Source: Corbicula japonica (taxonomy: Eukaryota > Mollusca > Bivalvia > Venerida > Cyrenidae). From it: a DNA stretch of 64,000 nucleotides. The notes under the pieces were generated by a model. It was not told where the DNA came from. It did not search any database and saw only the letters and a list, made by a program, of their open reading frames with translations. The stretch is taken from contig JAZAYU010000007.1 of NCBI GenBank assembly GCA_038501625.1, forward strand, positions 2,521,685 through 2,585,684, written 5' to 3'. Positions 17,741 through 62,090 of this stretch are shown here, in pieces. Position numbers and translations under genes: made by a program. Position 1 is the stretch's first letter. Each line of letters opens with the position of its first letter.

Positions 17741-17789
17741 AATCACTGCAACCACAGGCCAGTTTCACGGAATCGTTTTTATTAACCTA

Positions 17790-17955
17790 AATAATGCATT
17801 AACACAGTTGAAAAGAATATGTGTTTAATGAATCTTGCACAAACTGTGCATTCAGTAAAGACACTAAAATAAAACTTAGCACGATTGTAATTTCCCAGCA
17901 ATTAAGCCTACGAATCAATCTTTTATTCGTCGATTTTTAAAGATAACTTTCCAAC
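17790..17955. repeat. 165-bp dispersed repeat, second copy at 61925
   Basis: Begins AACACAGTTGAAAAGAATATG and includes CAATCTTTTATTCG and ACTTTCCAAC. A diverged direct copy stands at 61925-62090. It abuts the truncated 3' end of the LTR element and runs into a tRNA-like segment, so it may be the body of a SINE. Confidence 0.65.
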
Positions 17956-18030: not shown

Positions 18031-19284
18031 CCATCTTTCTCACCTTGTGACATTTGGTGCCTAACGGTAGACTGCAATAGCTAACAGGTTCTGCCACCAA
18101 CCTGCAATAACAAATGACATACACACAACTCTGGAATTCGAGGACGAATTTCCAGATTCGATGGTTGAATGTCACGGTACGAATCTAGTCTCTATTTGGG
18201 TGAGGATGTGTATGCGGCATGGATGGCTCAGTCACTCGCTCTGTAAGCGAACGGACCCGGTCTTGCTACACACTTTTCCCAACATGTGACACTTGCATAT
18301 CGTGAACAGGTCGAACAATTATTTGCTAAAATTTGTCAAATTTACATTAGACCACAGTTAAGCCTATAAAGCTCTATTGACATATGGTACCGTGAAAATT
18401 AAGCCGTGGTAGCTCTTTTCACATATTAGGCTATGAAAACAAATTACAGTTGAAAACTCTAAAAACATTACTTCCAAAATACAGTTATCTAGTAATTGGC
18501 CAATTATTTATGTGACATTTCTAAAAATTATTTTAAAAGTTGCATTTTCATAAATTTTGAAACACACTCATGACTCACTTTGGAATTGACGTCGTTGATC
18601 ATAATTTTAAAGTAAGAAATACATAATCTTAAGCCATTTTAAGATTTTAAAAAATAAAATATTCTGGGCAGCATCACATGTAATAATAGGTGTTTTTGAG
18701 ATATATATAACTATAAAAAGCCTTCGGACCTGTAATGCTTTGAGGACGAAAACTGGTATCCAGTTACACGTATGGTTTTATTTTTCATATTCATTCTATG
18801 AAGCATTACATTTTCAGCATAATTATGACCGTAAATCACATTAGCTTCATAACGATATACGGTTCATGATGCTAGTTTAAGAAATCTGTTCTTTTTCAAT
18901 ATTGATATAGTATTCACTAAGATGAAATTTATATTATAATTAAGGTGGAACGCGACACTGCGAACTTTCGAATTTCTTTTTGAAATTTTGTCATGAATGG
19001 TATTTATTGATGAGGACTCCAGCAAGAAGCCGTAAACCGTTATTCGATAAATCAAATTATTGTTTTGAATTTTACATTCAAAGTTAGCTATCAACGTTTG
19101 TTTTTTGCAGTGACCTCAACGGCGCTCGCCGAAAATGTTTTCGGGACTAGGTAAAACAATACTCTGACAATATCTTTCAGGTCATCTAAGATATAATAAA
19201 TTGAGACCAATTTTGAGAACGTTCTGTGTTAAACGCCGTTTTGCGTTAAAAAAGCCATCGAATTGTGAAAAAGTCCTAAATTTT
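18031..19284. other. Repeat remnants, no gene
   Basis: A second, poorer tRNA-like block (GGATGGCTCAGTCACTCGC, 18221-18239) lies here. So does a relative of the 10547 repeat at 18366-18385 and an element end TTAAGGTGGAACGCG at 18942-18956, matching the inverted end near 760. Open frames are short and unrecognised. Confidence 0.45.
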
Positions 19285-19554
19285 TGTGTCGCCCTTTCGA
19301 AGAAATGGCGAAAAATAGGGACCGCTTTGTCCGTCCGTCCGTCGGTCTGTCACGAAAAGGTCACATTTGATGGAGTTATGCCCCTTTTTGTGCTTGGATT
19401 TTTACACGAAAACTTAACGTTGGCTATAATTTTGTCATTTCTTCATATTTTTTCATCAAACTTTCAAATTATATTGCGTATGACAACAAACTCAAGATGT
19501 TGCAAAATTCTCAAGGTCAAGGTCACATTTGATGGAGTTATGCCCCTTTTTGTA
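19285..19554 (+). mobile_element. TCGCCCTTTCGAAG-family repeat, truncated by palindrome
   Basis: Starts TGTGTCGCCCTTTCGAAGAA and proceeds through the 147-bp unit motifs (GGAGTTATGCCCCTTTTTGT at about 19372 and 19536). It is cut at 19554, where the big palindrome begins. The normal family continuation after TTTTTGTAC is missing. Same family as 6180-7404 (opposite strand) and 31067-31383. Confidence 0.75.
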
Positions 19555-19921
19555 CATGTTTGTTATAAGTAGGACAATTCAAATAAGACGCCACAAACAA
19601 TTAAGAAAAAAAGAGAACAATTGCCGCTGGGTGTTTAAACCAGGTTCTAGGATGCACCAACCTTAAACAAGTACAAGTTGTCTTTGTGAAAAAACTCCAA
19701 CCCACCCATCAGCTAAACAATGTGTCAAGCAAAAGCACACAAACATATAAAACATAAGAAGCTAATAGCATTGAAGAGCCAAAGGGGCAGGTATCCAATG
19801 AATTTACCGAGACCAGAGCACCTGGAGTCAAATCTGCAAGGGCACAATGACAGTGATACAAGAAAAAATAAGCTTCTATGTTCTTTAAAAAAAGATACCC
19901 CTTATAAACCATTATATACTC

Positions 19922-21305
19922 TTAAAACCCTGCCACCGTTGTGTAACCAAAGAGGTAAGCGTAATGATAAACTGTAGATGGGTTAATCACACGGCTTGTA
20001 GAGCTCTGCAGAATATCATGCTGCTTGAATTTATAGATGGGTTTTACGAATGACCGGAAGAAATTAACATTGCCTTTTATTTTCTTAAGATTATAAATCA
20101 TATCTCCATTAAAATCGGCTGTGAAAAACCTAGTTGCAAGTTTCAAGTGATTTTAAAGTGAACCTGTAGTTTTGAATTAAATCTCAGTATCGGCGAAAAA
20201 ATACTTGCAAAAGGTTTTCCTTCATTTGTGATACCAATAACCTTGTTTTAAAAGTTTTTTGTTATGAAAAGATAACGTTTATGGAAATCATTAACATCAT
20301 TGCAAGCTCTAGAAAAGCGAACAAGCTGAGAGATATAAACCCCGTAAGATGTTGCACGAAGAACTTCGACGTCTAAAAACGGTAAATTTACAATATTAAA
20401 ATAATCTTTTTTATCATATATTTTAGTAGTGACGTATTCATTTTGATTAGAAATATTAATATCAAGAAAGTTTGTTTGCCTATCTGAAGTGTTTGCTTTA
20501 TTAAGTTGTAGTTCATTAGGATAAATTTTATTCACAGGAGCTAGAATATGGTTATGATCTATATTCAACAAATCATCAAGGTACCTTGAGGTGTTGTTTA
20601 AGGCTGAAATAATGTCATCCTGATAGTCGGTAGAAAGAGACAACATAAAATCTCTTTCACAAACGTATAGAAACAGATCAGCAACAAGAGGTGCACAATT
20701 AGTTCCCAATGGAGTGCCTATTACTTGTTTAAGAATAGGGATTACCAAATCCCAAATAAATATTATCCGATAAAATTTGAGCGCCTGGACAAGGTCTTGA
20801 CAGGTCCATGAAGTATAGTTATCCTAAGAACCATCTGTAAACAAATGCCCTTTCAGCGATAAATATTTTATTTTCTCTAGCAAAAGTTTTTCTTCAATGA
20901 GACTGCCTGTCTCTTAGTAAATTATGAGGGAGAGAAGTATATAAAGTAGAGGAATCATAATTAGACAAACAGAACGCCTGAAAATCATTTGATTTAAGCT
21001 TCATTTGAATTTTTTAGACCAAAATAAGATTTTGCCAGTGATTTTAAAATTATTTTCGCAATACCTAATTACATGTTCTTTTACAGCTGATAGACAAGAT
21101 GCACGGATTATTTAGTTGTTGTACAAGAACAAGTGTTTGCAATAAATCTGGCTTTGTACTGCGTTTTGTGCATTTTAGGCAACCAATACATAGTAGGTAC
21201 TTTGTCTTTTTTTTTGGCTCAACACTGATGCTAAATTTTACAATCACTCTCAGATGAAGAAGTCAGTCAGTAAGCATTATTACTATTAGGATTTTCAGTT
21301 TGAAC
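19922..21305 (-). pseudogene. Penelope-like element reverse transcriptase core and C-terminus, left arm
   Basis: The clearest frame (20248-20748, 166 codons) has GTPLGTNCAPLVADLFLYV, then YLDD at residues 56-59, the catalytic motif C, and KANTSDRQTNFLDI plus TKIYDKKDYFNIVNLPF and SYGVYISQLVRFSRAC. This combination is typical of Penelope-like RTs. The upstream part (VPTMYWLPKMHK, KARFIAN) is in broken frames to 21255. A C-terminal block (19922-20146) ends VINPSTVYHYAYLFGYTTVAGF. Many stops and shifts make this copy dead. Its N-terminal half lies beyond the inserted LINE at 26517-27830. Confidence 0.8.
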
Positions 21306-21311
21306 ATTAAT

Positions 21312-24300
21312 TCGTTTCGTTCCGTTTATTTGGCAACTCGGCATAAACAATGCCTGTGGCCATTTACAATCAGAGAAAAATATGACCATGGCATACATTG
21401 AAAATACAGAAATGACCAAAATAGATATAAGTTTTACATAGAGAAGAGCCACGGTATAATACATACAAAGCTTACAATACTACTCACGTCATTTGAAATG
21501 ATTCAAAAACATTCAAAATAATTAATTATAAATAAGGAGGCAGCATTTTCTTCAAGGGTTCATATCAAATTTACAGTGTGAAAGACATGTATTTTATACA
21601 TACAAAGCCTACAGCATTACACACATGGCTTGATTAAAATCAAAACAATTCAAAACAGTTAGGATTAAGAATTTTCTTCAAAGGTCTCATTTCTCAATTT
21701 ATTACATTTTTAATATATTTTGCTAAATGTATAACTCTTTTCTTATAAGTAATTGACATTATTGAAATAAATGTATTAAGAGACGGTCATGATATAATTC
21801 CAAAATATATTTCACGAACATCTCTGTACAGCGGACAACATAATACGAAATGATATTCTGTGTCTGTTATATTAGTAGAACATACTTTACATAATTATAC
21901 GATTTTCTCTTTGAGTTCCAATAAGACTACCCAACTCTATTTCAATATTATGCGAGTATAGTGTAAATCGGGTGAGTTGTATACATAATCAATTTATTAT
22001 TTTTATAATGAGAAAGGTAATCTTCAAATCAAAATGGTTTCTTACATTTTCTGAAAATGGTTAAAATTTATTTCAATATAATTATTTAACAAGTGTCAAA
22101 ATCGCAGTTTTTAATCATTTAGACCAGCAATTGTTATTATTTCCATTAAGTTGATCAATAATAATATTATGCATTGGCGAATCAGAAACGTTTACTATTT
22201 CAATCCAATATTTCAGCGTTCTTTCTTTCATAATAACTGAAAAACGGAATCTACCCGATTCTCCATAAGTTAAGTTAGGGGTTTGCTGGCGGACTCCTAA
22301 GACACATTTACAAAATTTTATCTACCAATTTTTGTAATGTCATAAATTCCCCATACTTCAGCTCTGTATAGAAGAATAGGTAACACCATTGAGTCAAAAA
22401 GGATAACATTGTGTTGACATCCAAATCTAGCCCTTTGAACAAAGATCACAAATTATTATAGGATCTTAGTGCTAATTCGTATAATGCTTTTACTGAAAAT
22501 GTAAAATTACCAGTGTAATTAAATGTTATTCTCATGTAGCGAAATTCGTTGACTATTTCAAGTTGCTAGCCATTAATAGTCCAATATAAGTTGTGATTCT
22601 GTTTGCTCTTTTCAAAAATGCATATTTTAGTTTTGTTAACATTAATTTTAAGTCCCTATTTTTCGGAATAATTATAAATACAGTTTAACTGAGATTGCAA
22701 TCTTTTTGGGTTCGTCGTTAAAAGAGCGATATCATCAGCAAAAAGTAAGATATACATAGACAACTATTCGAAATCGTTTTCAGTCATGGTACTAAATTCA
22801 ATCGACTGTTTAACGTCATTCATAAAAAAGAATAAAGAGCATTGGCGAAAGTGGCTCACTCTGTTTCAAACCAAATGATACATCAAAGAACTCTGAGCTT
22901 AACATTAGATGAAAGTTTAAAACATGACTTAACAACCGCATAGATATTTTTGATCATATTCAATATTTTAGAACTTATACCTATTTCTAAAAGTTTGATC
23001 CAAAATGCGTCTCTATCGACGGTATCGAAGGCCTTTTCATATTCATTAAAGGCACAATATAGTTAACTTTTTTTGCAAGTACTTTCTCTATAATTGAATG
23101 AAGTAAAAATATACAATCAGTAGTACTATAATTATCTCTAAATCCTGATTGATTTTCATTAAATTTATTTTCATTTTCACACCATTTATTTAGTCTTTCT
23201 GTAAGACAAAGTGAAAATATTTTGACATAATATTAACAAGAGTAATACCTCTATAATAAGATGCATTTGTAGGGTTTCTCTTCTTCTATATTGGCACTAT
23301 AGTACCCTTTCACCAAGACTCTGGATATACTCCAGTATCAAAATTTTTTTTAAAAAGTATCACAAGGTATGGGGAGATAAAATCATTGGCTTAAACGAAA
23401 AAGTCGGCAACATTGTTATCACGTTCACAACTCTACTGTCTTTTTAATCTTCAGACTACCTTTGAAATTCCTTCAGTAGTCAAAGTATTATCTAGTTCCT
23501 CACTTATTACATAATTATGTGTTTCAAAAAACTGTTGTTGGTATAAAACTTCATCATTACCATTTTCTATTACCAAAGTTTTAAATATTTTTAAAATGTT
23601 CTACAAAATCATTCATACGGATTTGAGAAGTATTAACATTATTTTTCTTGCTAAATTTTTTAATGCACTTTCAAAATTTTAGAGGATCATTTTACTCATT
23701 CTCGATAGTTTTGCCTTTTCCTTAGAATCAAAAGCATTTTATATCTTCTTTTTATTGAGCAAAATTCTTTCCTCAAGTTCAGAAAATTTAATTTATTCGC
23801 ATCTGATGGAAATAAGTGAAACATTATTTTTGCATCTAAACTGAACAAAAATAAAAAGTATCCACTTTTTATGCTTGTTTTTCCATTACCATATTTTCAT
23901 TTAACCAGGAACGCTTTGAATGGTGTTTAATTAGTTAATCTCAGTTGTTTTTGAGTAAAATTGTTCATGAATAAAAACTTCCACACCAAGACCTGAGGAA
24001 ATGCCAATTGAATAACAATTAATCATGACTTACAAAACACTACATATTCAATTTAAAGGGAGGTAATTGGAAATGGTTGGATTTTCCAACGTTGTTTATC
24101 GAGGACCAGTTGATTTATTTATGAAAATTTTGTGATTTTATTTATCCACAAAAGGTAGAGAACGTGATTTAATTCCAATAAATGTGAATATTTCAAAGAA
24201 TCGCCGACATTTTACTGAAACCCATATTATAATAAAGGGAAAGACAACTAAGTTGTGGCTGCAGATTTTCAAAAATACTTTATCCCTTTGCAATGATAAC

Positions 24301-26510
24301 AGAAAAACAAATGTGTACACATATAGAATTTTGAGTTTTCGTTTTCATATTTTATAAAATTTAATATAGGAAAGTGGATACTTTTTATTTTTGTTGAGTA
24401 TAGAAAACATCATTTGGCAAGTTTACATTCATCATTAAACCACAATGCTTTCCTCTTATTGTTAATTCTTTTGTTTGAAATAAAAGTTTTGCCATGTAAA
24501 TTAAATGCTATTTTATGTATAACAGAAGCAAAATTATTCACACAATTATCCAAATGTGTATCATCTTTACTTAATTTTATTATGAGTTCGTCAAAAAGTG
24601 TTTATTTTCAAGTAAAACTGCTTTAAGTACATCAGGATTTAAAGTCTTCCATACACTCTTCGTACATTCACCATTATCAGAAACTTGTCGTTTGAGATAA
24701 TAACACTCTAAAAAAAATTCAACAGGACAATGATCAGAATGATCTGTTATACCTAAAACAATAAAACTTGAAATCAAGGGTAGATTATTATCAGTTGTTA
24801 TTACATAACCAACAACACTGGCGGCAACGTTGAGATGAAAAATATTGTAATATGTTAAATTGCCCGTTTCTAGACGACCGTGTTGAATAATTAAATTATT
24901 TTTCGTTGTGAAGGTTCAACAATTTTAGCCAAAGTTATTCATTTTGCCATCTAGTGATCGGTGAACTGGTATATACACGCGATAATCGTTATTCGGTATG
25001 CTAACATGACGGTCAAGATTATGGTTTTCTAAAATATCAGATAGTTGACCTGTTCTAGAATTTAGGTCACTGGTTAAATACACATCGCCCTTTAAACTGT
25101 AACGTCTTACGTCAATACTTAACTGTTAAAAAATTCAAAATTGTACAATGGGGAATTTAAACTACAATAAACTGTGGAATCTTTAGGGGGAATGTAACAT
25201 GTACACATATAGACAATATTTACAAATCCTAATTTATCTTAATGCAATTTAAACAAAAAAAATTCATTATCTTTCTCACTTATTAGCAATATGTTATTAC
25301 TTTAGTCAGAATTAAAAAATATTATAACACCACCACTGTTACGTTTCGCTCTTTTGTTAGATTTAGGTCTATGACATCAAAAATTATCAAACCATGGAAT
25401 GTTAACATTCGACACTTTAGAACAACATGTTTCTGCAAACATCAATATATCATATTTTGATGCAAAGTTAATAAAATCACAGGCACTAAGTTTTGAAAGC
25501 AAACTCTGAACATTCCATAGGATGAATGTTAGCTGCTTCCCACAAGCTTCCTAATTGTCGGATTCATTGGGTGTTGCAGATGGCTTAAATAGCCTACCGT
25601 CAATATAGAGTTTGTCACTTTGGCCTCTTTTTCGCATCCTTGGCTTTTATTAGCTAAGGTTTGTGTGCCTTTCGTCTATCATGTATTGTCTTTAAAAACT
25701 GGTCACTAGATTTATTTATCCAATCCTTCCCTTTGTTGAGGAGTAACGATCTTTCTCAGATTTTGATTTTTATCAATATCTGATTGTTTTATAAGGATTT
25801 CATCATAAGTTTTGCTGCCAAACTTTTTTCAAGTTTCAATTTCCACGATTTGTTTGCTAGATTCGTGTACAATTCGTTCAATATCAGTAATTAATATATC
25901 CATACGGGTTAATTTCAGAGATATACCGGTTACTTGACTTTCTATTAAATCTAGCTTACTCAACCTTTTGTCAATCAAATTCAATTTGTCCAAAACGATT
26001 TTCATAAAATTTAGTGATATTACTGGCAGATGAAGATGCGAGGGCGGGGGTGGGAGTGGCGGAGGAGTAGAAACTGTAGAACCATTGAAGTTCTGGGGAT
26101 ATGGGTTATAATTCGCTGCTTGCCAAGGCGGTATATGCGAAAGAAAATTGTTTGCTGAGATGAATTCGGGATACTTGAGCTAGCGCACTGATCAGCCCTC
26201 ATTACCGTTACACATTTACCGGGTTTTATGTCCGTAAAATTGTGTTAACCTGAGACTTCTTTCTCTTGTGTTTTTCACGTCAAACATCAAACAATAAAAC
26301 AAAGAGTTTTCGCGGGAATCGAGATTTTTATACGAATATAAATTCCACTAGTGTCACGAAATAAATTAAGTCCACCAATTCAGAGAAATATCCAGCATAT
26401 GTTTTGATCAAATTTAGTTTATATGTTTTACACTTTTATGTTTTAGATCCATTTATTATGATAGAGAACAACATTTTCAATGTATGTCAGCCATATTGGT
26501 CACATGATGT
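21312..26510 (-). mobile_element. Non-LTR retrotransposon (LINE) nested in Penelope-like element, left arm
   Basis: Minus-strand copy of the LINE at 35967-40608, flanked by ATTAAT at 21306-21311 and 26511-26516. It is 5.2 kb here because of the 558-bp insertion at 23841-24398. The RT FADD motif is near 22732-22743. The 3' end carries the complement of AATAAACGGAACGAAACG (21313-21330). Heavily mutated, no full-length ORF. Confidence 0.85.
23841..24398. mobile_element. 558-bp TIR element inserted only in the left arm
   Basis: Inverted ends of about 28 bp: CTGAACAAAAATAAAAAGTA at 23841-23860 and CTTTTTATTTTTGTTGAG at 24381-24398, with one mismatch. The right arm at the equivalent point (about 38080-38090) reads straight through, so this is a filled site against an empty site. 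No transposase; non-autonomous. The target duplication is short and unclear, perhaps TA. Confidence 0.85.
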
Positions 26511-26516
26511 ATTAAT

Positions 26517-27830
26517 ATAGATTATACGTCACACTAAAAATACATTATTTGAAGCCTTATCAGCAGATTTTAAAACAAATCTGTTGTGAAAGTCTTGAAT
26601 ACTTTTTCAAATGACGAAAGTACAAACGAGGTCGAGGTGGTAATAAAGATGTGTTTCTTTAATAGAAGGATAAACGAGTATCAGTTATTTTGAATATTTG
26701 TTTTTTTTCCAGTTTGAAAGAGCATTAGGCTCAGCATGTTCTCGTTTACACCATTTATTGCAAAAAAGACTCTGCAATTTCCGCACGACATGTATTTAAG
26801 TCGATGTCCGATGGATTTCTATATTTCGGACCTTTTTAAATTAAATTGCGTATTCTAACGTCTTTGATACCATTTACTCACTCGTTAACGATGTGGCCGG
26901 CAGGTTGATAGCAAATTTTTGAATTTGAACAGTCTCGTCATTTTGGTGTATTTTCAACAATCTGTAAATCCGTGGTAATTTTGTTGTAATTGAAAATTGT
27001 GTTTCTAATTGGCTTGTTGTATTTGTGTCAAACGATGGGTGTTTTAGTATTCTTGAAATAATTAGGTATAGCCGATTCAACAATTTTATATTTAAATATA
27101 TTTAGAAGGTCAATAAAATCTATACCTTTATTTAAAAATGAAATGTTAAGGAAATGTCTTTGGTGGTCAGATTACTAGTCAATGTGTGGTCTGAGAACAT
27201 GCCGAGTGTAACAATGAGTAAGGCTAGCAACTTCAAAAAGTGGATGATTTCTTATAACAATATCATCGGCTTTCTTATCTACTTTCTGTAAACTTGATAT
27301 AGAACGAGAAGCCAAATGTGACAGCAAAGCGTGTCTATCAGAATGTTTTAAAATATTTAAAGGTCATGAATAGAACAAAATCACAACTCGATTTTCTCTT
27401 GGTGTTACCAATAGTCCTTTTTCGTGTGACCTCGAATTTTGTTTTCGTATTTCAAGCAAATCAAAAATGTCAAAATCAGGTGTTTTTTTTTAAATGTTGC
27501 CTTCTTGATAAACATTGTCACTTAAACCGAGTGGGTAAGGTGTTTGAAATTTTTGTATCCACATGTTCCGAAATAAGCCTTGCTTTAATTTTAAATGCTC
27601 ATGAAGCACTGTAATCGAATATAACTTTTTCAGCGGGTTGAATATTTACATGTTTTAAAGTGTGGCCTGATTGCTTGAAATTTTTATATAAAAATGTAGT
27701 GATTTCATAATTTTTTCTTATTTTAGAACAGTGCTGACTAAAACGTGTTTTAATGGGGGTACTGTTTGTCCAACATGATGAATTTCACAATTTAGGGCTA
27801 TCTAAAAATCTGTAGGATTGTTTAGAACTA
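26517..27830 (-). pseudogene. Penelope-like element, GIY-YIG-like region and RT N-terminus, left arm
   Basis: Mirror of 34650-35966 on the opposite strand. On the minus strand the order is: GIY-YIG-like block (near 27800-27440), linker with the DFIDLLNIF region, then the RT N-terminal part. It is interrupted at 26511 by the LINE. Short frames at 26874-27083 and others are pieces of it. The same stops and shifts as in the right arm show that decay preceded the palindrome. Confidence 0.65.
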
Positions 27831-27839
27831 TAATATCAT

Positions 27840-30800
27840 ATTTTTATGTAGATTTACAACTGATAATGAGCAGGTCATAACCTCACTCATAAAATAAGGA
27901 AAATCACATTTTTTCAAAACATATGTCTTAAATTACATGTTAATTATATGCTAGTTATATTTAATAAATGAAAATATAGCAAAACAATTCGATATTACAT
28001 CTAAGTATTTTGAAGTTAACTTTTTATTCTATGTTAGATTTTCTTCCATACTATTCAGGGTTCGCAATGAAAAATACTATCCAGGCAACATATATTTAAT
28101 AAGACATACTATAAACTTTAATAAATGTTCAGCTTCGGAATTTAGACTTATAACACGATATCTTATGTTCAATGCGTTTGCCTGCGCGAATATCTTTTGA
28201 GGATTTATGCTCTAAACAAGAAATTCGGGTCGGGCGTATACTAAAATAATTATCTCAGTTCAAAGGTATTTATTAGTTCACATTTTATATTTAAATGTAA
28301 CCATAGCAAGACTGAGGGAAGAATTTCAGTTTCAAAATAACCCGCTATATAAAGGTTTAAAATGATTCATAAAGACTCTAATGATGTTTTCACATCAGAG
28401 GTCAATACAGAAGAGTCATTTTGCTACATTTTTTCGTAATAAGGTAGATTTTAGATCCATACAATTGATATGCAGAAAAATACATCTGAAAATATTTCGA
28501 TAAATTCCTTTATTAAAATAATAATCATGTACTACATGGAAGTTAACTAGAAAGTCACGAGGAGGCGAGTTTCAAATAATTGTGCCGAGAGACGGACAAG
28601 GCGATCCCGACTTTTTGTTATCGGGTAAAAAATAAAGGTTATCAAAACTGTTCGGATTTATAATGGGTTAAACGAAAAATAACGAAAACAAGAAAATTAA
28701 ATTATCTCTTGTCAGGCATATAATGTACACATAACAGAAACACCTGGTATTATTAAATGCCTTTCGAGTAAGGTTTAAAACGTTTTTAAAGGAATACGTT
28801 TGGCTGGATTTAACCAGTACTATGTTATAAATCGTTACTTGTGCATCATTTTGACGTATGAAACTTTATTTTATGTTAAATATTGACAAGTTATCTCTTG
28901 TCAAAGATCCGTTATTTGCAAAATCGGCGGGCATCGATGATCGTCGCCATGTTTGTTCCCTTTTCGATGCGCGCACCTGCTAGTGACGTCATTTACACAC
29001 TTCCGGTTCGTATCGTTTCATTTTTATCATTCTCAACAATGGAATATTCATTTATTTAACAACTACATAATAGCCCATGATTTTGAGCCTGAAAAATCTG
29101 AAATTGAATTAGCCGAGATTGAAAGAAACTGCTTGTTATGCCACCATTAAATACAAAAGAATGCCGACAACAGTAGAACGTGTAACCCTATTTTCTCGTT
29201 TAAGAGTATGGAGTGAGGCCAGTCAAAGACCTAAATAGGTCTTTCGGCCAATATATAGGTGTAGAGCTTGTGATATTTTTTCCTGATCGACTTTGCAGAT
29301 TTTTTTTGGCCGAAATGCGTTTACTTCGTGAGATGGATACACGATGTCCTTAATTAAATTGGAGGTAAACGTTTGGCGATCTAGCGACATTGTTGTATGC
29401 GGCATCTGAAGCGATCTAATTAACCACTTTTTTTTATTTTGTATTAACAAATACCATTGACTTTTATATAAATGTTTTATATAGATCCTTAAAAATACAT
29501 TTTTCTTGAATTTATTATTCAACTGTCGAATAATACTTTTTGTCACTAAATTCACATAGTTTTGTTTTTCTCCTGGTGCAAAAATAATAATTATAATATT
29601 TAACCGTTACTCGACTTCAGGTGGCCCTCGCTATCAAAAGACACTAATATGTTTACTAATCGGGAGGCGGAGTTTACCCAGAAAAAAGTAGAGAAATCGA
29701 TCGTCATTGGCTAATTTGCTTTACCATAACGTTTTTGACCTGTAAATTTGATTTGCGACATGTAGACAGTGAAATACACAATAACTTTTTGACACGACGA
29801 TTTCAGGCCCGGTTTGATTGAGCTTGTTCATGGGTATTAATTAAAATGCATATTAATCCCTGCGCCGCTAAGCCTGGGGTTGAGTGCAACTTGGTACTTC
29901 AATACGAACATTTACTGTAAAATTGTATGTTTCTTTCTTAAATCTAATTATAAAATTTAATGTTGCACACTGAGTGGTATAGTATCGTTTTAACACGCAT
30001 GTCGCTAACTGATACGTTAATCTCACTAGCCAGCTTGCTCCGAAGAAGATCGGGTGACATATTAAAAAGGTGTGAAAAACTTAACTGACATACTTAATTT
30101 TAGAAAACGTGAGGGGACAATAGTAAATTCAATTTACATTTTTATACTAAAAGGAAATATTTCAATTTAGCGATCGGAGCCTCTAACATTCTCATTTAAA
30201 CACATTGTCTTTTAAATCCTAATTACCGATGCAATTACTTGAGCAAAATGTAAGATAAGAAGGTAAGAATACACAATACACTATAACATAATGTGAAATT
30301 TTCCTATTTTTGCTACTTTGCAAATATTTTTCCACAAACAGCGATGTTTGCATATAATTAATTTTGCCTGCTTTCAGCTCTGCGCGTATTCAAATTGAAA
30401 GGGAAGTGTGTAAATGACGTCACGCCTCGTTTTTATCTCTCGCGAGACAACGAGATGTCAACAATGGCCGCGCTCGTGCTACGCTTGAAAAAAACGATTA
30501 TCAGTGTAATTAAAAGTACGTTTTACAATTATCATATTCGTCGTCATCGATTGATTACGGTAATTGTGTTATTCAAAATATGTTTTATCATTTAAACAAA
30601 TGTTATAACCAGCCGAACGTATAGAATCTATAAATCAGAAAACATCTTTAAAATGTAGTACTCCGTTTTGTCAAACCTACTCATATTTCAGCCCTGAGTT
30701 TAGCATTTAACTGTCTCTAATTTTATTTACAGGGAATTTTTGTAAAGGTTCAATACATAGAATATGAAAAATTTGATTTCAGCTGATTCCTTTAGTTTTT

Positions 30801-31016
30801 GTGTCCTTACAACTTAACTATTCAAAGCAACAACCTTTTACTTAAGAGTTTAAAACTGGTCTGGAATTGTTCGTACGTTTTAACAATCTACGGAGAAAAC
30901 CATTTGCCTAAAAGTTTTGTTATGCGTGTATATTTTATATGTATTTATATGTATATTATTTGTATATTTTATGGGGCTGTCCCGACTAGCATTTCGGTTG
31001 CATCGTTCGAATTGCA
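27840..31016. other. Inner part of left arm, probable 5' region of the element
   Basis: No confirmed gene. It holds TGACGTCA at 28984-28991 and 30415-30422, each inside an inverted 21-bp word (TGACGTCATTTACACACTTC and its complement). There is a 110-codon minus-strand frame at 29223-29555 without recognisable domain (its right-arm twin is shortened by a frameshift). There is also a 65-codon plus-strand frame at 28953-29150 ending in acidic EPEKSEIELAEIE and CLLC. A diverged relative of this region stands at 58430-60410. Confidence 0.5.
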
Positions 31017-31388
31017 TATGCAATATAAATGAACAATAAGGTAACAATATTTATGAAACAGCTTTTTGTGTCGCCCTTTCGAAGAAATGGCGATACATAG
31101 GGACCGCTTTGTCCGTCCGTCGGTCCGTCGGTCTGTCACGAAAACTTAACGTCGGCTATAACTTTGCCATTTCTTAATATTTCTTTATCAAACTTGCAAA
31201 TTATATTGCTTATGACTACACGCTCGAGATGATGCCAAATTCTCAAGGTCACATTTGATGGAGTTATGCCCGTTTTTGTACTTGGATTTTTACACGAAAA
31301 CTTAACGTTGGGTATAACTTTGTCATTTCTTTATATTTTTACATCAAACTTACAAATTATATTCCTTATGACTACACGCTCATTGATC
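31017..31388. other. Palindrome spacer containing TCGCCCTTTCGAAG-family repeat
   Basis: The 372-bp non-paired centre. Most of it (31067-31383) is a plus-strand copy of the same mollusc-type repeat that borders the palindrome at 19285-19554. It includes GTCGCCCTTTCGAAGAAATG and two 147-bp unit fragments. The repeat is truncated at its 3' side, ending ACACGCTC before the right arm starts. Confidence 0.85.
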
Positions 31389-31395
31389 TGCAATT

Positions 31396-34300
31396 CGATC
31401 GATGCAACCGAAATGCTAGTCGGGACAGCCCCATAAAATATACAAAGCACTTTAAAATTATGTAGAATATATATATCATTCCAAGCAAGAATTGATGAAA
31501 AACGCGATATTTTTAACCCAGGTATAACATACCAATCATATCAATAGAATGCACAAATACACGCATAACAAAACTTTTAGGCAAATGGTTTTCTCCGTAG
31601 ATTGTTAAAACGTACGAACAATTCCAGACCAGTTTTAAACTCTTAAGTAAAAGGTTGTTGCTTTGAATAGTTAAGTTGTAAGGACACAAAAACTAAAGGA
31701 ATCAGCTGAAATCAAATTTTTCATATTCTATGTATTGAACCTTTACAAAAATTCCCTGTAAATAAAATTAGAGACAGTTAAATGCTAAACTCAGGGCTGA
31801 AATATGAGTAGGTTTGACAAAACGGAGTACTACATTTTAAAGATGTTTTCTGATTTATAGATTCTATACGTTCGGCTGGTTATAACATTTGTTTAAATGA
31901 TAAAACATATTTTGAATAACACAATTACCGTTATCAATCGATGACGACGAATATGATAATTGTAAAACGTACTTTTAATTACACTGATAATCGTTTTTTC
32001 AAGCGTAGCACGAGCGCGGCCATTGTTGACATCTCGTTGTCTCGCGAGAGATAAAAACGAGGCGTGACGTCATTTACACACTTCCCTTTCAATTTGAATA
32101 CGCGCAGAGCTGAAAGCAGGCAAAATTAATTATATGCAAACATCGCTGTTTGTGGAAAAATATTTGCAAAGTAGCAAAAATAGGAAAATTTCACATTATG
32201 TTATAGTGTATTGTGTATTCTTACCTTCTTATCTTACATTTTGCTCAAGTAATTGCATCGGTAATTAGGATTTAACAGACAATGTGTTTAAATGAGAATG
32301 TTAGAGGCTCCGATCGCTAAATTGAAATATTTCCTTTTAGTATAAAAATGTAAATTGAATTTACTATTGTCCCCTCACGTTTTCTAAAATTAAGTATGTC
32401 AGTTAAGTTTTTCACACCTTTTTAATATGTCACCCGATCTTCTTCGGAGCAAGCTGGCTAGTGAGATTAACGTATCAGTTAGCGACATGCGTGTTAAAAC
32501 GTATACCTCTCAGTGTGCAACATTAAATTTTATAATTAGATTTAAGAAAGAAACATACAATTTTACAGTAAATGTTCGTATTAAAGTACCAAGTTGCACT
32601 CGACCCCAGGCTTAGCGGCGCAGGGATTAATATGCATTTTAATTAATACCCATGAACAAGCTCAATCAAACCGGGCCTGAAATCGTCGTGTCAAAAAGTT
32701 ATTGTGTATTTCACTGTCTACATGTCGCAAATCAAATTTACAGGTCAAAAACGTTATGGTAAAGCAAATTAGCCAATGACGATCGATTTCTCTACTTTTT
32801 TCTGGGTAAACTCCGCCTCCCGATTAGTAAACATATTAGTGTCTTTTGATAGCGAGGGCCACCTGAAGTCGAGTAACGGTTAAATATTATAATTATTATT
32901 TTTGCACCAGGAGAAAAACAAAACTATGTGAATTTAGTGACAAAAAGTATTATTCGACAGTTGAATAATAAATTCAAGAAAAATGTATTTTTAAGGATCT
33001 ATATAAAACATTTAAATAAAAGTCAATGGTATTTGTTAATACTAAATAAAAAAAAGTGGTTAATTAGATCGCTTCAGATGCCGCATACAACAATGTCGCT
33101 AGATCGCCAAACGTTTACCTCCAATTTAAGGACATCGTGTATCCATCTCACGAAGTAAACGCATTTCGGCCAAAAAATATGTGCAAAGTCGATCAGGAAA
33201 AAATATCACAAGCTCTACACCTATATATTGGCCGAAAGACCTATTTAGGTCTTTGACTGGCCTCACTCCATACTCTTAAACGAGAAAATAGGGTTACACG
33301 TTCTACTGTTGTCGGCATTCTTTTGTATTTAATGGTGGCATAACAAGCAGTTTCTTTCAATCTCGGCTAATTCAATTTCAGATTTTTCAGGCTCAAAATC
33401 ATGGGCTATTATGTAGTTGTTAAATAAATGAATATTCCATTGTTGAGAATGATAAAAATGAAACGATACGAACCGGAAGTGTGTAAATGACGTCACTAGC
33501 AGGTGCGCGCATCGAAAAGGGAACAAACATGGCGACGATCATCGATGCCCGCCGATTTTGCAAATAACGGATCTTTGACAAGAGATAACTTGTCAATATT
33601 TAACATAAAATAAAGTTTCATACGTCAAAATGATGCACAAGTAACGATTTATAACATAGTACTGGTTAAATCCAGCCAAACGTATTCCTTTAAAAACGTT
33701 TTAAACCTTACTCGAAAGGCATTTAATAATACCAGGTGTTTCTGTTATGTGTACATTATATGCCTGACAAGAGATAATTTAATTTTCTTGTTTTCGTTAT
33801 TTTTCGTTTAACCCATTATAAATCCGAACAGTTTTGATAACCTTTATTTTTTACCCGATAACAAAAAGTTGGGATCGCCTTGTCCGTCTCTCGGCACAAT
33901 TATTTGAAACTCGCCTCCTCGTGACTTTCTAGTTAACTTCCATGTAGTACATGATTATTATTTTAATAAAGGAATTTATCGAAATATTTTCAGATGTATT
34001 TTTCTGCATATCAATTGTATGGATCTAAAATCTACCTTATTACGAAAAAATGTAGCAAAATGACTCTTCTGTATTGACCTCTGATGTGAAAACATCATTA
34101 GAGTCTTTATGTATCATTTTAAACCTTTATATAGCGGGTTATTTTGAAACTGAAATTCTTCCCTCAGTCTTGCTATGGTTACATTTAAATATAAAATGTG
34201 AACTAATAAATACCTTTGAACTGAGATAATTATTTTAGTATACGCCCGACCCGAAATTCTTGTTTAGAGCATAAATCCTCAAAAGATATTCGCGCAGGCA

Positions 34301-34640
34301 AACGCATTGAACATAAGATATCGTGTTATAAGTCTAAATTCCGAAGCTGAACATTTATTAAAGTTTATAGTATGTCTTATTAAATATATGTTGCCTGGAT
34401 AGTATTTTTCATTGCGAACCCTGAATAGTATGGAAGAAAATCTAACATAGAATAAAAAGTTAACTTCAAAATACTTAGATGTAATATCGAATTGTTTTGC
34501 TATATTTTCATTTATTAAATATAACTAGCATATAATTAACATGTAATTTAAGACATATGTTTTGAAAAAATGTGATTTTCCTTATTTTATGAGTGAGGTT
34601 ATGACCTGCTCATTATCAGTTGTAAATCTACATAAAAATA
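31396..34640. other. Inner part of right arm, probable 5' region of the element
   Basis: Inverted twin of 27840-31009. It has TGACGTCA at 32065-32072 and 33488-33495. Short open frames (32427-32615, 32928-33158, 33329-33526 minus) are not recognised. In the right arm the 32427 frame is open for 62 codons. About 75 bp at 31443-31530 have no counterpart in the left arm. Confidence 0.5.
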
Positions 34641-34649
34641 TGATATTAT

Positions 34650-35966
34650 AGTTCTAAACAATCCTATAGATTTTTAGATAGCCCTAAATTGTGAAATTCA
34701 TCATGTTGGACAAACAGTACCCCCATTAAAACACGTTTTAGTCAGCACTGTTCTAAAATAAGAAAAAATTATGAAATCACTACATTTTTATATAAAAATT
34801 TCAAGCAATCAGGCCACACTTTAAAACATGTAAATATTCAACCCGCTGAAAAAGTTATATTCGATTACAGTGCTTCATGAGCATTTAAAATTAAAGCAAG
34901 GCTTATTTCGGAACATGTGGATACAAAAATTTCAAACACCTTACCCACTCGGTTTAAGTGACAATGTTTATCAAGAAGGCAACATTTAAAAAAAACACCT
35001 GATTTTGACATTTTTGATTTGCTTGAAATACGAAAACAAAATTCGAGGTCACACGAAAAAGGACTAATGGTAACACCAAGAGAAAATCGAGTGTTCATTG
35101 TTCTATTCATGACCTTTAAATATTTTAAAACATTCTGATAGACACGCTTTGCTGTCACATTTGGCTTCTCGTTCTATATCAAGTTTACAGAAAGTAGATA
35201 AGAAAGCCGATGATATTGTTATAAGAAATCATCCACTTTTTGAAGTTGCTAGCCTTACTCATTGTTACACTCGGCATGTTCTCAGACCACACATTGACTA
35301 GTAATCTGACCACCAAAGACATTTCCTTAACATTTCATTTTTAAATAAAGGTATAGATTTTATTGACCTTCTAAATATATTTAAATATAAAATTGTTGAA
35401 TCGGCTATACCTAATTATTTCAAGAATACTAAAACACCCATCGTTTGACACAAATACAACAAGCCAATTAGAAACACAATTTTCAATTACAACAAAATTA
35501 CCACGGATTTACAGATTGTTGAAAATACACCAAAATGATGAGACTGTTCAAATTCAAAAATTTGCTATCAACCTGCCGGCCACATCGTTAACGAGTGAGT
35601 AAATGGTATCAAAGACGTTAGAATACGCAATTTAATTTAAAAAGGTCCGAAATATAGAAATCCATCGGACATCGACTTAAATACATGTCGTGCGGAAATT
35701 GCAGAGTCTTTTTTGCAATAAATGGTGTAAACGAGAACATGCTGAGCCTAATGCTCTTTCAAACTGGAAAAAAAAACAAATATTCAAAATAACTGATACT
35801 CGTTTATCCTTCTATTAAAGAAACACATCTTTATTACCACCTCGACCTCGTTTGTACTTTCGTCATTTGAAAAAGTATTCAAGACTTTCACAACAGATTT
35901 GTTTTAAAATCTGCTGATAAGGCTTCAAATAATGTATTTTTAGTGTGACGTATAATCTATATTAAT
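34650..35966 (+). pseudogene. Penelope-like element, GIY-YIG-like endonuclease region and RT N-terminus, right arm
   Basis: Read across several frameshifts. A GIY-YIG-like start (ALNCEIHHVGQT, about 34680-34715) is followed by FLYKNFKQSGHTLKHVNI, a region with PAEKVIF and ARLISEH, and FQTPYPLGLSDN (about 34930-34970). This is the order seen at the C-terminal side of GIY-YIG domains in Penelope-like elements. Next come RSISSLQKVD, CYTRHVLRPHID and FLNKGIDFIDLLNIF. The last part before the LINE is DFHNRFVLKSADKASNN. The endonuclease thus lies upstream of RT on the same strand, opposite to canonical Penelope but as described for Naiad/Chlamys-type elements. Dead copy. Confidence 0.65.
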
Positions 35967-38900
35967 ACATCATGTGACCAATATGGCTGACATACATTGA
36001 AAATGTTGTTCTCTATCATAATAAATGGATCTAAAACATAAAAGTGTAAAACATATAAACTAAATTTGATCAAAACATATGCTGGATATTTCTCTGAATT
36101 GGTGGACTTAATTTATTTCGTGACACTAGTGGAATTTATATTCGTATAAAAATCTCGATTCCCGCGAAAACTCTTTGTTTTATTGTTTGATGTTTGACGT
36201 GAAAAACACAAGAGAAAGAAGTCTCAGGTTAACACAATTTTACGGACATAAAACCCGGTAAATGTGTAACGGTAATGAGGGCTGATCAGTGCGCTAGCTC
36301 AAGTATCCCGAATTCATCTCAGCAAACAATTTTCTTTCGCATATACCGCCTTGGCAAGCAGCGAATTATAACCCATATCCCCAGAACTTCAATGGTTCTA
36401 CAGTTTCTACTCCTCCGCCACTCCCACCCCCGCCCTCGCATCTTCATCTGCCAGTAATATCACTAAATTTTATGAAAATCGTTTTGGACAAATTGAATTT
36501 GATTGACAAAAGGTTGAGTAAGCTAGATTTAATAGAAAGTCAAGTAACCGGTATATCTCTGAAATTAACCCGTATGGATATATTAATTACTGATATTGAA
36601 CGAATTGTACACGAATCTAGCAAACAAATCGTGGAAATTGAAACTTGAAAAAAGTTTGGCAGCAAAACTTATGATGAAATCCTTATAAAACAATCAGATA
36701 TTGATAAAAATCAAAATCTGAGAAAGATCGTTACTCCTCAACAAAGGGAAGGATTGGATAAATAAATCTAGTGACCAGTTTTTAAAGACAATACATGATA
36801 GACGAAAGGCACACATACCTTAGCTAATAAAAGCCAAGGATGCGAAAAAGAGGCCAAAGTGACAAACTCTATATTGACGGTAGGCTATTTAAGCCATCTG
36901 CAACACCCAATGAATCCGACAATTAGGAAGCTTGTGGGAAGCAGCTAACATTCATCCTATGGAATGTTCAGAGTTTGCTTTCAAAACTTAGTGCCTGTGA
37001 TTTTATTAACTTTGCATCAAAATATGATATATTGATGTTTGCAGAAACATGTTGTTCTAAAGTGTCGAATGTTAACATTCCATGGTTTGATAATTTTTGA
37101 TGTCATAGACCTAAATCTAACAAAAGAGCGAAACGTAACAGTGGTGGTGTTATAATATTTTTTAATTCTGACTAAAGTAATAACATATTGCTAATAAGTG
37201 AGAAAGATAATGATTTTTTTTGTGTTTAAATTGCATTAAGATAAATTAGGATTTGTAAATATTGTCTATATGTGTACATGTTACATTCCCCCTAAAGATT
37301 CCACAGTTTATTGTAGTTTAAATTCCCCATTGTACAATTTTGAATTTTTTAAACAGTTAAGTATTGACGTAAGACGTTACAGTTTAAAGGGCGATGTGTA
37401 TTTAACCAGTGACCTAAATTCTAGAACAGGTCAACTATCTGATATTTTAGAAAACCATAATCTTGACCGTCATGTTAGCATACCGAATAACGATTATCGC
37501 GTGTATATACCAGTTCACCGATCACTAGATGGAAAAATGAATAACTTTTGCTAAAATTGTTGAACCTTCACAACGAAAAATAATTTAATTATTCAACACG
37601 GTCGTCTAGAAACGGGCAATTTAACATATTACAATATTTTTCATCTCAACGTTGCCGCCAGTAATGTTGGTTATGTAATAACAACTGATAATAATCTACC
37701 CTTGATTTCAAGTTTTATTGTTTTAGGTATAACAGATCATTCTGATCATTGTCCTGTTGAATTTTTTTTAGAGTGTTATTATCTCAAACGACAAATTTCT
37801 GATAATGGTTTTATGTACGAACAGTGTATGGAAGACTTTAAATCCTGATGTACTTAAAGCAGTTTTACTTGAAAATAAACACTTTTTGACGAACTCATAA
37901 TAAAATTAAGTAAAGATGATACACATTTGGATAATTGTGTGAATAATTTTGCTTCTGTTATACATAAAATAGCATTTAATTTACATGGCAAAACTTTTAT
38001 TTCAAACAAAAGAATTAACAATAAGAGGAAAGCATTGTGGTTTAATGATGAATGTAAACTTGCCAAATGATGTTTTCTATATGCAAAAATAATTTTTCAC
38101 TTATATCCATCAGATGCGAATAAATTAAATTTTCTGAACTTGAGGAAAGAATTTTGCTCAATAAAAAGAAGATATAAAATGCTTTTGATTCTAAGGAAAA
38201 GGCAAAACTATCGAGAATGAGTAAAATGATCCTCTAAAATTTTGAAAGTGCATTAAAAAATTTAGCAAGAAAAATAATGTTAATACTTCTCAAATCCGTA
38301 TGAATGATTTTGTAGAACATTTTAAAAATATTTAAAACTTTGGTAATAGAAAATGGTAATGATGAAGTTTTATACCAACAACAGTTTTTTTGAAACACAT
38401 AATTATGTAATAAGTGAGGAACTAGATAATACTTTGACTACTGAAGGAATTTCAAAGGTAGTCTGAAGATTAAAAAGACAGTAGAGTTGTGAACGTGATA
38501 ACAATGTTGCCGACTTTTTCGTTTAAGCCAATGATTTTATCTCCCCATACCTTGTGATACTTTAAAAAAAAAATTTTGATACTGGAGTATATCCAGAGTC
38601 TTGGTGAAAGGGTACTATAGTGCCAATATAGAAGAAGAGAAACCCTACAAATGCATCTTATTATAGAGGTATTACTCTTGTAAATATTATGTCAAAATAT
38701 TTTCACTTTGTCTTACAGAAAGACTAAATAAATGGTGTGAAAATGAAAATAAATTTAATGAAAATCAATTAGGATTTAGAGATAATTATAGTACTACTGA
38801 TTGTATATTTTTACTTCATTCAATTATAGAGAAAGTACTTGCAAAAAAAGTTAACTATATTGTGCCTTTAATGAATATGAAAAGGCCTTCGATACCGTCG

Positions 38901-40608
38901 ATAGAGACGCATTTTGGATCAAACTTTTAGAAATAGGTATAAGTTCTAAAATATTGAATATGATCAAAAATATCTATGCGGTTGTTAAGTCATGTTTTAA
39001 ACTTTCATCTAATGTTAAGCTCAGAGTTCTTTGATGTATCATTTGGTTTGAAACAGGGTGAGCCACTTTCGCCAATGCTCTTTATTCTTTTTTATGAATG
39101 ACGTTAAACAGTCGATTGAATTTAGTACCATGACTGAAAACGATTTCGAATAGTTGTCTATGTATATCTTACTTTTTGCTGATGATATCGCTCTTTTAAC
39201 GACGAATCCAAAAAGATTGCAATCTCAGTTAAACTGTATTTATAATTATTCCGAAAAATAGGGACTTAAAATTAATGTTAACAAAACTAAAATATGCATT
39301 TTTGAAAAGAGCAAACAGAATCACAACTTATATTGGACTATTAATGGCTAGCAACTTGAAATAGTCAACGAATTTCGCTACATGAGAATAACATTTAATT
39401 ACACTGGTAATTTTACATTTTCAGTAAAAACATTATACGAATAAGCACTAAGATCCTATAATAATTTGTGATCTTTGTTCAAAGGGCTAGATTTGGATGT
39501 CAACACAATGTTATCCTTTTTGAATCAATGGTGTTACCTATTCTTCTATACAGAGCTGAAGTATGGGGAATTTATGACATTACAAAAATTGGTAGATAAA
39601 ATTTTGTAAATGTGTCTTAGGAGTCCGCCAGCAAACCCCTAACTTAACTTATGGAGAATCGGGTAGATTCCGTTTTTCAGTTATTATGAAAGAAAGAACG
39701 CTGAAATATTGGATTGAAATTATAGTAAACGTTTCTGATTCGCCAATGCATAATATTATTATTGATCAACTTAATGGAAATAATAACAATTGCTGGTCTA
39801 AATGATTAAAAACTGCGATTTTGACACTTGTTAAATAATTATATTGAAATAAATTTTAACCATTTTCAGAAAATGTAAGAAACCATTTTGATTTGAAGAT
39901 TACCTTTCTTATTATAAAAATAATAAATTGATTATGTATACAACTCACCCGATTTACACTATGCTCGCATAATATTGAAATAGAGTTGGGTAGTCTTATT
40001 GGAACTCAAAGAGAAAATCGTATAATTATGTAAAGTATGTTCTACTAATATAACAGACACAGAATATCATTTCGTATTATGTTGTCCGTTGTACAGAGAT
40101 GTTCGTGAAATATATTTTGGAATTATATCATGACCGTCTCTTAATACATTTATTTCAATAATGTCAATTACTTATAAGAAAAGAGTTATACATTTAGCAA
40201 AATATATTAAAAATGTAATAAATTGAGAAATGAGACCTTTGAAGAAAATTCTTAATCCTAACTGTTTTGAATTGTTTTGATTTTAATCAAGCCATGTGTG
40301 TAATGCTGTAGGCTTTGTATGTATAAGATACATGTCTTTCACAATGTAAATTTGATATGAACCCTCGAAGAAAATGCTGCCTCCTTATTTATAATTAATT
40401 ATTTGGAATGTTTTTGAATCATTTCAAATGACGTGAGTAGTATTGTAAGCTTTGTATGTATTATACCGTGGCTCTTCTCTATGTAAAACTTATATCTATT
40501 TTGGTCATTTCTGTATTTTCAATGTATGCCATGGTCATATTTTTCTCTGATTGTAAATGGCCACAGGTATTGTTTATGCCGAGTTGCCAAATAAACGGAA
40601 CGAAACGA
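35967..40608 (+). mobile_element. Non-LTR retrotransposon (LINE) nested in Penelope-like element, right arm
   Basis: A 4642-bp element flanked by ATTAAT on both sides (35961-35966, 40609-40614). In order: a proline-rich and coiled-coil ORF1-like region (about 36275-36650, with LDKLNLIDKRLSKLDLIES); an apurinic-type endonuclease (about 37000-37780; CYIPPKDS, GDVYLTSDLNSRTGQ, ITDHSDHCPVEF); and RT (about 38640-39700; ENQLGFR, FADDIALL at 39175). The 3' end is AATAAACGGAACGAAACG with no long poly(A). Many stops and shifts; no intact ORF. The clade was not assigned by eye. Confidence 0.85.
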
Positions 40609-41998
40609 ATTAATGTTCAAACTGAAAATCCTAATAGTTATAATGCTTACTGACTGACTTCTTCATCTGAGAGTGATTGTAAAATTTAGCATCAGTGTTG
40701 AGTCAAAAAAAAGACAAAGTACCTACTATGTATTGGTTGCCTAAAATGCACAAAACGCAGTACAAAGCAAGATTTATTGCAAACACTTGTTCTTGTACAA
40801 CAACTAAATAATCCGTGCATCTTGTCTATCAGCTGTAAAAGAACATGTAATTAGGTATTGCGAAAATAATTTTAAAATCACTGGCAAAATCTTATTTTGG
40901 TCTAAAAAAATTCAAATGAAGCTTAAATCAAATGATTTTCAGGCGTTCTGTTTGTCTAATTATGATTCCTCTACTTTATATACTTCTCTCCCTCATAATT
41001 TACTAAGAGACAGGCAGTCTCATTGAAGAAAAACTTTTGCTAGAGAAAATAAAATATTTATCGCTGAAAGGGCATTTGTTTACAGATGGTTCTTAGGATA
41101 ACTATACTTCATGGACCTGTCAAGACCTTGTCCAGGCGCTCAAATTTTATCGGATAATATTTATTTGGGATTTGGTAATCCCTATTCTTAAACAAGTAAT
41201 AGGCACTCCATTGGGAACTAATTGTGCACCTCTTGTTGCTGATCTGTTTCTATACGTTTGTGAAAGAGATTTTATGTTGTCTCTTTCTACCGACTATCAG
41301 GATGACATTATTTCAGCCTTAAACAACACCTCAAGGTACCTTGATGATTTGTTGAATATAGATCATAACCATATTCTAGCTCCTGTGAATAAAATTTATC
41401 CTAATGAACTACAACTTAATAAAGCAAACACTTCAGATAGGCAAACAAACTTTCTTGATATTAATATTTCTAATCAAAATGAATACGTCACTACTAAAAT
41501 ATATGATAAAAAAGATTATTTTAATATTGTAAATTTACCGTTTTTAGACGTCGAAGTTCTTCGTGCAACATCTTACGGGGTTTATATCTCTCAGCTTGTT
41601 CGCTTTTCTAGAGCTTGCAATGATGTTAATGATTTCCATAAACGTTAACTTTTCATAACAAAAAACTTTTAAAACAAGGTTATTGGTATCACAAATGAAG
41701 GAAAACCTTTTGCAAGTATTTTTTCGCCGATACTGAGATTTAATTCAAAACTACAGGTTCACTTTAAAATCACTTGAAACTTGCAACTAGGTTTTTCACA
41801 GCCAATTTTAATGGAGATATGATTTATAATCTTAAGAAAATAAAAGGCAATGTTAATTTCTTCCGGTCATTCGTAAAACCCATCTATAAATTCAAGCAGC
41901 ATGATATTCTGCAGAGCTCTACAAGCCGTGTGATTAACCCATCTACAGTTTATCATTACGCTTACCTCTTTGGTTACACAACGGTGGCAGGGTTTTAA
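40609..41998 (+). pseudogene. Penelope-like element reverse transcriptase core and C-terminus, right arm
   Basis: Twin of 19922-21305. The clearest frame, 41172-41648 (158 codons), carries the GTNCAPL block and YLDD (residues 56-59). It stops at TAA where the left arm has TAT, so the left frame is eight codons longer. The C-terminal block is at 41774-41998. Upstream KKDKVPTMYWLPKMHK-like sequence (about 40705-40760) directly follows the LINE target site, showing that the RT gene was continuous before the LINE arrived. Confidence 0.8.
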
Positions 41999-42450
41999 GA
42001 GTATATAATGGTTTATAAGGGGTATCTTTTTTTAAAGAACATAGAAGCTTATTTTTTCTTGTATCACTGTCATTGTGCCCTTGCAGATTTGACTCCAGGT
42101 TCTCTGGTCTCGGTAAATTCATTGGATACCTGCCCCTTTGGCTCTTCAATGCTATTAGCTTCTTATGTTTTATATGTTTGTGTGCTTTTGCTTGACACAT
42201 TGTTTAGCAGATGGGTGGGTTGGAGTTTTTTCACAAAGACAACTTGTACTTGTTTAAGGTTGGTGCATCCTAGAACCTGGTTTAAACCCCTAGCGGCAAT
42301 TGTTCTCCTTTTTTCTTAATTGTTTGTGGCGTCTTATTTGAATTGTCCTACTTATAACAAACATGCTTTCTCTTCCTCTCTTCGTTTTCGCTGCGTGGGA
42401 AGGCTGTGTTTTGTAAGTGTGCCGATTCCTGATATGCATATTCACTTTAA
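41999..42450 (+). mobile_element. Penelope-like element 3' end, right arm and beyond
   Basis: The non-coding 3' segment after the RT stop, containing ACCTGGTTTAAACCCC, TTGTTTGTGGCGTC and, outside the palindrome, CCTGATATGCATAT (42427-42440). Partial copies of it lie at 48297-48711, 54507-54740, 55503-55880 and 62277-62330. The left arm holds it only to 19555. Confidence 0.7.
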
Positions 42451-61929: not shown

Positions 61930-62090
61930 CACAAGTGTAAAGAATATGTGTACAATAAATCATGCACAAAATGTGCATTTATCAATGAAACAGTTTAAAG
62001 TGAAGCAAGAAAGGATTGTAGTTTTCCCAGCATTTCAGCCAAACAATCAATCTTTTATTCGGCGATTTTAAGAAACCTTTCCAACTGTAT
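61930..62090. repeat. 165-bp dispersed repeat, second copy
   Basis: Direct diverged copy of 17790-17955: GTGTAAAGAATATGTGTA, ATGTGCATTTATC, TTTTCCCAGCA, CAATCTTTTATTCGGCGATT and CCTTTCCAAC. Directly follows the 788-bp TIR element. Confidence 0.65.

Follow-up and report, generated by a model that had tools for sequence, protein, structure and literature searches.

How does a stretch of 11 kb come to lie beside its own inverted copy, and what do its edges tell of the event? The question is raised by a large palindrome in the bivalve Corbicula japonica, on contig 7 (C7) of assembly GCA_038501625.1, which comprises 1.07 Gb in 1,630 contigs. The window, by which we mean the whole stretch of DNA that was analysed, spans 64,000 bp (C7 2521685-2585684), and positions are counted from its first base. 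As argued below from the sequence, the palindrome is probably a fairly young inverted segmental duplication of a repeat-filled 11-kb stretch, made by break repair around a native loop of 372 bp. Published work is cited by PMC number, in each case for the excerpts drawn on here.

The palindrome and its four edges

Compared with itself by BLAST, the window yielded two inverted matches, 19555-23838 with 42365-38078 (99.16%) and 24387-30931 with 38093-31557 (99.27%). Global alignment and the base sequence set the arm edges at 19555 and 42365 on the outside and at 31016 and 31389 on the inside. The position, arm lengths and 372-bp spacer described in an earlier note on this DNA are thus confirmed. 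The palindrome and the features that bear on its origin are:

19555-31016, plus strand: left arm, 11,462 bp; its outer end appears to be a new junction
31017-31388, no strand: spacer, 372 bp, made up of 46 bp of apparently native left-arm inner flank (31017-31062), the 5' part of a HINE and a 1-nt filler, C
31389-42365, minus strand: right arm, 10,977 bp; its inner end appears to be a new junction, its outer edge looks ancestral
19281-19555, plus strand: S1, a copy of a HINE (a non-autonomous Helentron), broken off within its central repeats by the left outer edge, with a 1-bp overlap (C) with the arm
31063-31387, plus strand: S2, a second HINE copy, lying in the spacer and broken off within its central repeats by the start of the right arm; same orientation as S1
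31011-31024, no strand: 14-bp perfect palindrome ATTGCATATGCAAT; the duplicated stretch stops 1 bp off its axis
58461-60725, plus strand: older collinear paralogue of low-copy arm parts, 68-79%, which includes the native inner flank without a HINE

Chance can be ruled out as the source of arms so long and so similar, because the window holds only one perfect palindrome with arms of at least 10 bp in its 64,000 bases. The window's 60 best matches to itself include no further long palindrome, and no second copy was found in the assembly with arm pieces as queries, the best 40 candidates being scored in each search; the other loci share only arm-internal repeats.

Of the four edges, two appear to be ancestral. 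Repeat copies related to the right outer edge occur at 7 other loci (8 matches, 72-87%), where they continue past 42365. For the left inner edge the evidence comes from the collinear paralogue, which pairs with the arms at 31442-31855/60489-60100 (68%) and 34056-34194/58591-58461 (79%); another paralogue of low-copy arm parts lies at C7:2477566 (73%). Positions 60691-60725 of the collinear paralogue match the 46-bp flank with a score of 44, against a maximum of 37 in 300 shuffles, and do so in the right place and order; past this match the paralogue reads CTTTTT, without a HINE. By this collinear match at its start, the spacer seems to belong natively to the left arm, and the left inner edge seems ancestral. 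A search with 30640-31062, in which all four candidates were scored, gave two besides the arms themselves, both 70-73% paralogues on the same contig. Also in this neighbourhood, 17799-17955 and 61926-62085 are 76.5% alike in direct orientation and may belong to old local duplications around the palindrome.

The other two edges run into HINE sequence. The family is represented by six full copies elsewhere, each of 890-900 bp and consisting of a 5' subterminal repeat, a microsatellite, repeats of about 160 bp, a 3' subterminal repeat and a terminal palindrome, in the order known from oyster HINEs (PMC7492417). Both S1 and S2 have an intact 5' end with the 5' subterminal repeat and its inverse copy, the microsatellite and the central tandem repeats, and both lack the right module, that is, the 3' subterminal repeat and terminal palindrome present in all six full copies. 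By their module composition, S1 and S2 are remnants of HINE elements cut at the junctions. HINE-like sequence other than S1 and S2 covers just 883 of 103,999 bp of the surrounding contig stretch, so that two breakpoints in HINEs are unlikely to be a matter of chance, a judgement made post hoc and on a small sample. A second HINE-like repeat cluster lies at 6200-7013 on the minus strand. The base sequence thus supports two ancestral edges, left inner and right outer, and two new joins, each of which cuts a HINE within its tandem repeats.

The inner junction, at 31388, has 0 bp of microhomology and 1 nt of filler. A 4-bp microhomology considered for this junction was dropped once the end of the element had been located from other HINE copies, and a hairpin at the inner edge folds no better than shuffled sequence (z 0.28). 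As to the 14-bp palindrome, 0.11% of window positions are as near such an axis as the end of the duplicated stretch is, a figure obtained post hoc for one of four edges examined.

Separate ageing of the arms

Up to 30931 the alignment of the arms has 10,800 columns, of which 57 (0.53%) hold substitutions; in addition there are 13 indels of 1-4 bp and one of 564 bp. From 30931 to the inner edge the arms diverge more, via a length-variable AT-rich tract. The earlier note had listed the large insertion and a length difference near the centre, both of which stand, and had left the small indels unlisted; the substitutions, at about one per 190 bp, are somewhat denser than its estimate of one per few hundred bases. 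The two larger differences are:

23835-24398, plus strand: insertion in the left arm only, 564 bp, with inverted ends that match over 32 of 34 bp
30931-30958, no strand: shortened tract in the left arm; its right-arm counterpart is 31448-31556

For the insertion, the right arm has the empty site, and a 4-bp target duplication, read by eye, is probable. For the tract near the centre, a loss in the left arm is the best reading, because the right-arm form aligns better with both paralogues.

All 57 substitutions were polarised with 44 outgroup loci, which are repeat copies elsewhere, aligned to each arm in turn. Under both reference arms the polarisation agreed for 43 of the 57: in 25 cases the right arm carries the derived base, in 18 the left arm; four depend on the reference arm (20116, 29298, 29301 and 29468) and ten are unclear. 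This supersedes a count with the right arm as sole reference, which gave 25 right, 23 left and 9 unclear. One-sided polarisations from two repeat families (8 of 8 right in one, 5 of 5 left in the other) were dropped, as wider outgroups gave both arms. Judged by these derived bases, the arms have aged separately from a common source, each mutating independently, which argues against a hairpin artefact of reading; such an artefact should leave arms identical within read error and no polarised mutations in both, and the arms here are otherwise. Of the 34 sites in 19555-30931 and 31557-42365 at which a strong (G/C) base stands against a weak (A/T) one, 24 show the strong base on the left (p = 0.024), which may be chance.

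A proposed route by break repair

An inverted second copy, sharp novel junctions and unduplicated outer flanks are what characterizes an inverted segmental duplication, and all are present here. A native single-copy spacer, to the extent that the short paralogue match identifies it, further agrees with a fold-back, the mechanism by which human inverted duplications with native spacers have been explained (PMC3907307). However, the short inverted microhomology expected at the spacer junction is missing, and the structure is therefore classed as an inverted duplication by break repair rather than as a strict fold-back. Of the three origins raised in the earlier note, fold-back is nonetheless the best supported, with a native-looking spacer and new junctions that fit break repair.

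The following course of events would be consistent with the four edges. A chromosome end may have broken inside a HINE; one sister would then have lost about 0.4 kb, back to the axis of the 14-bp palindrome, and the other little. Joining of the sisters, by fold-back or by end-to-end fusion, would have left the native 372 bp as a loop; the lack of microhomology at 31388 favours end joining over strand annealing. The resulting inverted dimer would have broken again at a distance of 11 kb and been joined to the left-flank HINE, S1, which is probably the opposite side of the first break. Healing of dicentric breaks near dispersed repeats is known from yeast (PMC10164571). Two template switches in repair synthesis would be an alternative route that leaves an identical scar. 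Afterwards both arms would have drifted by mutation. If an opposed pair of HINEs was present and acted as a fragile site, this would account for both joins lying in HINEs.

Several points weigh against this account. The inner junction, with its filler and its lack of microhomology, departs from 13 human fold-back junctions, which had 2-8 bp of inverted microhomology (PMC3907307). The paralogue match by which the spacer appears native is short, at 35 columns, and that S1 is the other side of the first break is something we infer. The ancestral single-copy allele was not seen, and the palindrome is read from assembled sequence.

Weighing other explanations

Can the similarity of the arms be a matter of upkeep rather than youth? 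Frequent gene conversion from arm to arm, as in the palindromes of sex chromosomes, was among the suggestions of the earlier note and would allow the structure to be old. It finds no clear support and seems unlikely: the differences are not significantly clustered (p = 0.09, 0.12 and 0.10), private derived bases occur along the length of both arms, and the 564-bp insertion has neither spread nor been erased. Youth alone accounts for the similarity, so that conversion is not needed, although there is room for some: the inner half is poorer in differences, with 16 of 51 events (p = 0.011), and at one place the arms are identical over 1,040 bp. By a shade less probable is an artefact of library or assembly, also raised in the earlier note, in which a fold-back read or the inverted joining of two haplotypes entered the contig. 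Fold-back reads (PMC12870357) and amplification palindromes (PMC6218980) are known artefacts, and an arm divergence of 0.53% with an insertion present in one arm and absent from the other might also fit two alleles. However, in a hairpin read both arms come from one molecule, which does not account for 43 mutations that polarise consistently, 25 in one arm and 18 in the other, and a mobile insertion in one arm only is hard to obtain from such a read or from an amplification chimera. Moreover, even a join of haplotypes would require the contig to have been falsely joined twice, at points 11 kb apart and each time exact to the base, and no haplotig of the arm or the left flank was found among the best 40 candidates scored per search. 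The ancestral right edge, together with independent mutation of both arms, thus makes an artefact unlikely.

The remaining explanations place the origin in the centre or in a mobile element. A palindrome without spacer could have formed first, at the 14-bp palindrome, its centre being filled later by 364 bp between two copies of TGCAAT. When 31025-31388 is removed on paper the axis falls exactly at ATTGCATATGCAAT, and the rarity of window positions this near such an axis lends the idea some weight. However, the spacer opens with bases that are matched in the collinear paralogue flank, which makes it look native, and the search with 30640-31062 gave no donor elsewhere among its four candidates, though a 38-bp donor could escape it. 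We therefore hold a later-filled centre to be improbable. More improbable yet is the transposition of a HINE without its 3' end, by which the element would have dragged along or captured the arm and itself done the duplicating. This would agree with two cut elements that have kept the 5' end and lack the 3' module. Yet S1 is 98.0% and S2 91-93% identical to the HINE majority sequence, and both are thus further from the family than the arms, at 0.53%, are from each other. Capture by a Helentron would also be expected to land the copy elsewhere, not inverted next to its source. Least credible by far is a large transposon with giant terminal inverted repeats. The size of the largest DNA transposons would fit the palindrome, but its right edge falls within an older dispersed repeat, copies of which continue across 42365 and contradict a transposon end there, for which reason this candidate was rejected. 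Nor is there a target duplication beside the edges, a transposase in the 21 of 40 arm open reading frames (ORFs) that were scanned, or a second copy among the best 40 candidates scored per search.

Arm content and surroundings

What was duplicated, if the palindrome is an inverted duplication by break repair, appears to have been mainly repeats. Right-arm stretches 31866-33694, 34685-35966 and 36738-42365, about 80% of the arm, are each present in three or more copies among the loci fetched; to judge from these, the arms are mostly old repeats:

28786-30622, plus strand: repeat family TE1 in the left arm, with its right-arm copy at 31866-33693; main matches of 85-92% in six fetched loci
34685-35966, plus strand: repeat family TE2 in the right arm, 88% against 38 other copies scored
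36738-42442, plus strand: decayed dispersed repeats, which we read from their ORFs as reverse-transcriptase-like and of which related copies elsewhere continue across 42365; one weak RVT_1 match

In TE1, both arms lack the same approximately 320 bp that are present in other copies. The weak RVT_1 match (38667-38927, E 0.053, below the cut-off) fits the reading as a decayed retrotransposon. The ORF at 41097-41645 belongs to a very large family, with 7,968 of 8,000 scored candidates at E <= 0.001; it gave no Pfam match, and we take it from its motifs to be reverse-transcriptase-like. No intact gene was found in the arms: among the 21 of 40 right-arm ORFs of at least 55 aa that were scanned, none reached a curated Pfam cut-off. 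Weak Pfam matches to HAP (E 0.046), DUF2616 (0.079) and the botulinum toxin helical domain (0.049; 13.6 bits against a cut-off of 52.2) were taken as chance. Scans of the window for tRNAs and Rfam families were empty, and the palindrome has no evident function.

Outside the arms, the window holds further repeats and ORFs. At 4747-5477 lies a tandem array of units of about 165 bp, in which the primers for the bivalve satellite BIV160, taken from PMC5139131, match at five places with 1-4 edits; both primers are represented, at best with 1 and 2 edits, and the array by itself points very probably to a bivalve host. The remnant of a retrotransposon of the long terminal repeat type lies at 15234-17785, with domains for reverse transcriptase and RNase H in its second ORF. 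Immediately to the right of the palindrome, the ORF 43083-43688 has a partial Core-2/I-branching enzyme domain; beyond it come a degenerate long array of 4-bp units (44022-44626) and a Tc-type transposase in two overlapping frames (49309-50315).

Relation to known systems and meaning

Among the closest likenesses are the human fold-back inverted duplications with disomic spacer (PMC3907307), which share the two inverted copies, the short native single-copy spacer and a second break that ends the duplication. In the cases described there, however, the duplications lie mostly beside terminal deletions and have larger spacers, whereas ours is interstitial, with 11-kb arms and a 372-bp spacer, and lacks the 2-8 bp of inverted microhomology found at 13 junctions. 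In yeast, dicentric breakage induced by inverted repeats (PMC10164571) likewise yields an inverted duplication adjoining repeats, the other breakpoint of which is repaired within or close to a dispersed repeat; for our palindrome, the inverted pair of elements in place beforehand is one that we infer, and healing would have been to the nearby flank. Palindromes of ampliconic regions on sex chromosomes (e.g. PMC8981503) are similar in having arms more than 99% alike and a short spacer, but in our case no gene was found in the arms, there is no clear sign of gene conversion, and the 60 best self-matches include no other long palindrome. Finally, the junction elements resemble the oyster Cg_HINE non-autonomous Helentrons (PMC7492417), whose module order they share; the HINEs here mark the breakpoints and are not themselves the palindrome. 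A literature search on inverted duplications with Helitron and palindrome returned nothing.

Structures of this kind are already known, and the palindrome alone alters no established view. It is of value as a well-preserved, apparently young large palindrome in which no gene was found and both junctions can be read to the base. Beyond this, we tentatively propose, as a conjecture that we rate as fairly unlikely, that opposed pairs of HINE Helentrons are fragile sites that seed inverted duplications, a single break giving both the HINE-cut junctions and the large palindrome. As an element type, HINE Helentrons are known to be widespread in bivalves. If the proposal is true, bivalve genomes should carry many palindromes with HINE remnants at the spacer and at the outer edge, and structural variation would be linked to a transposon that is common in bivalves.

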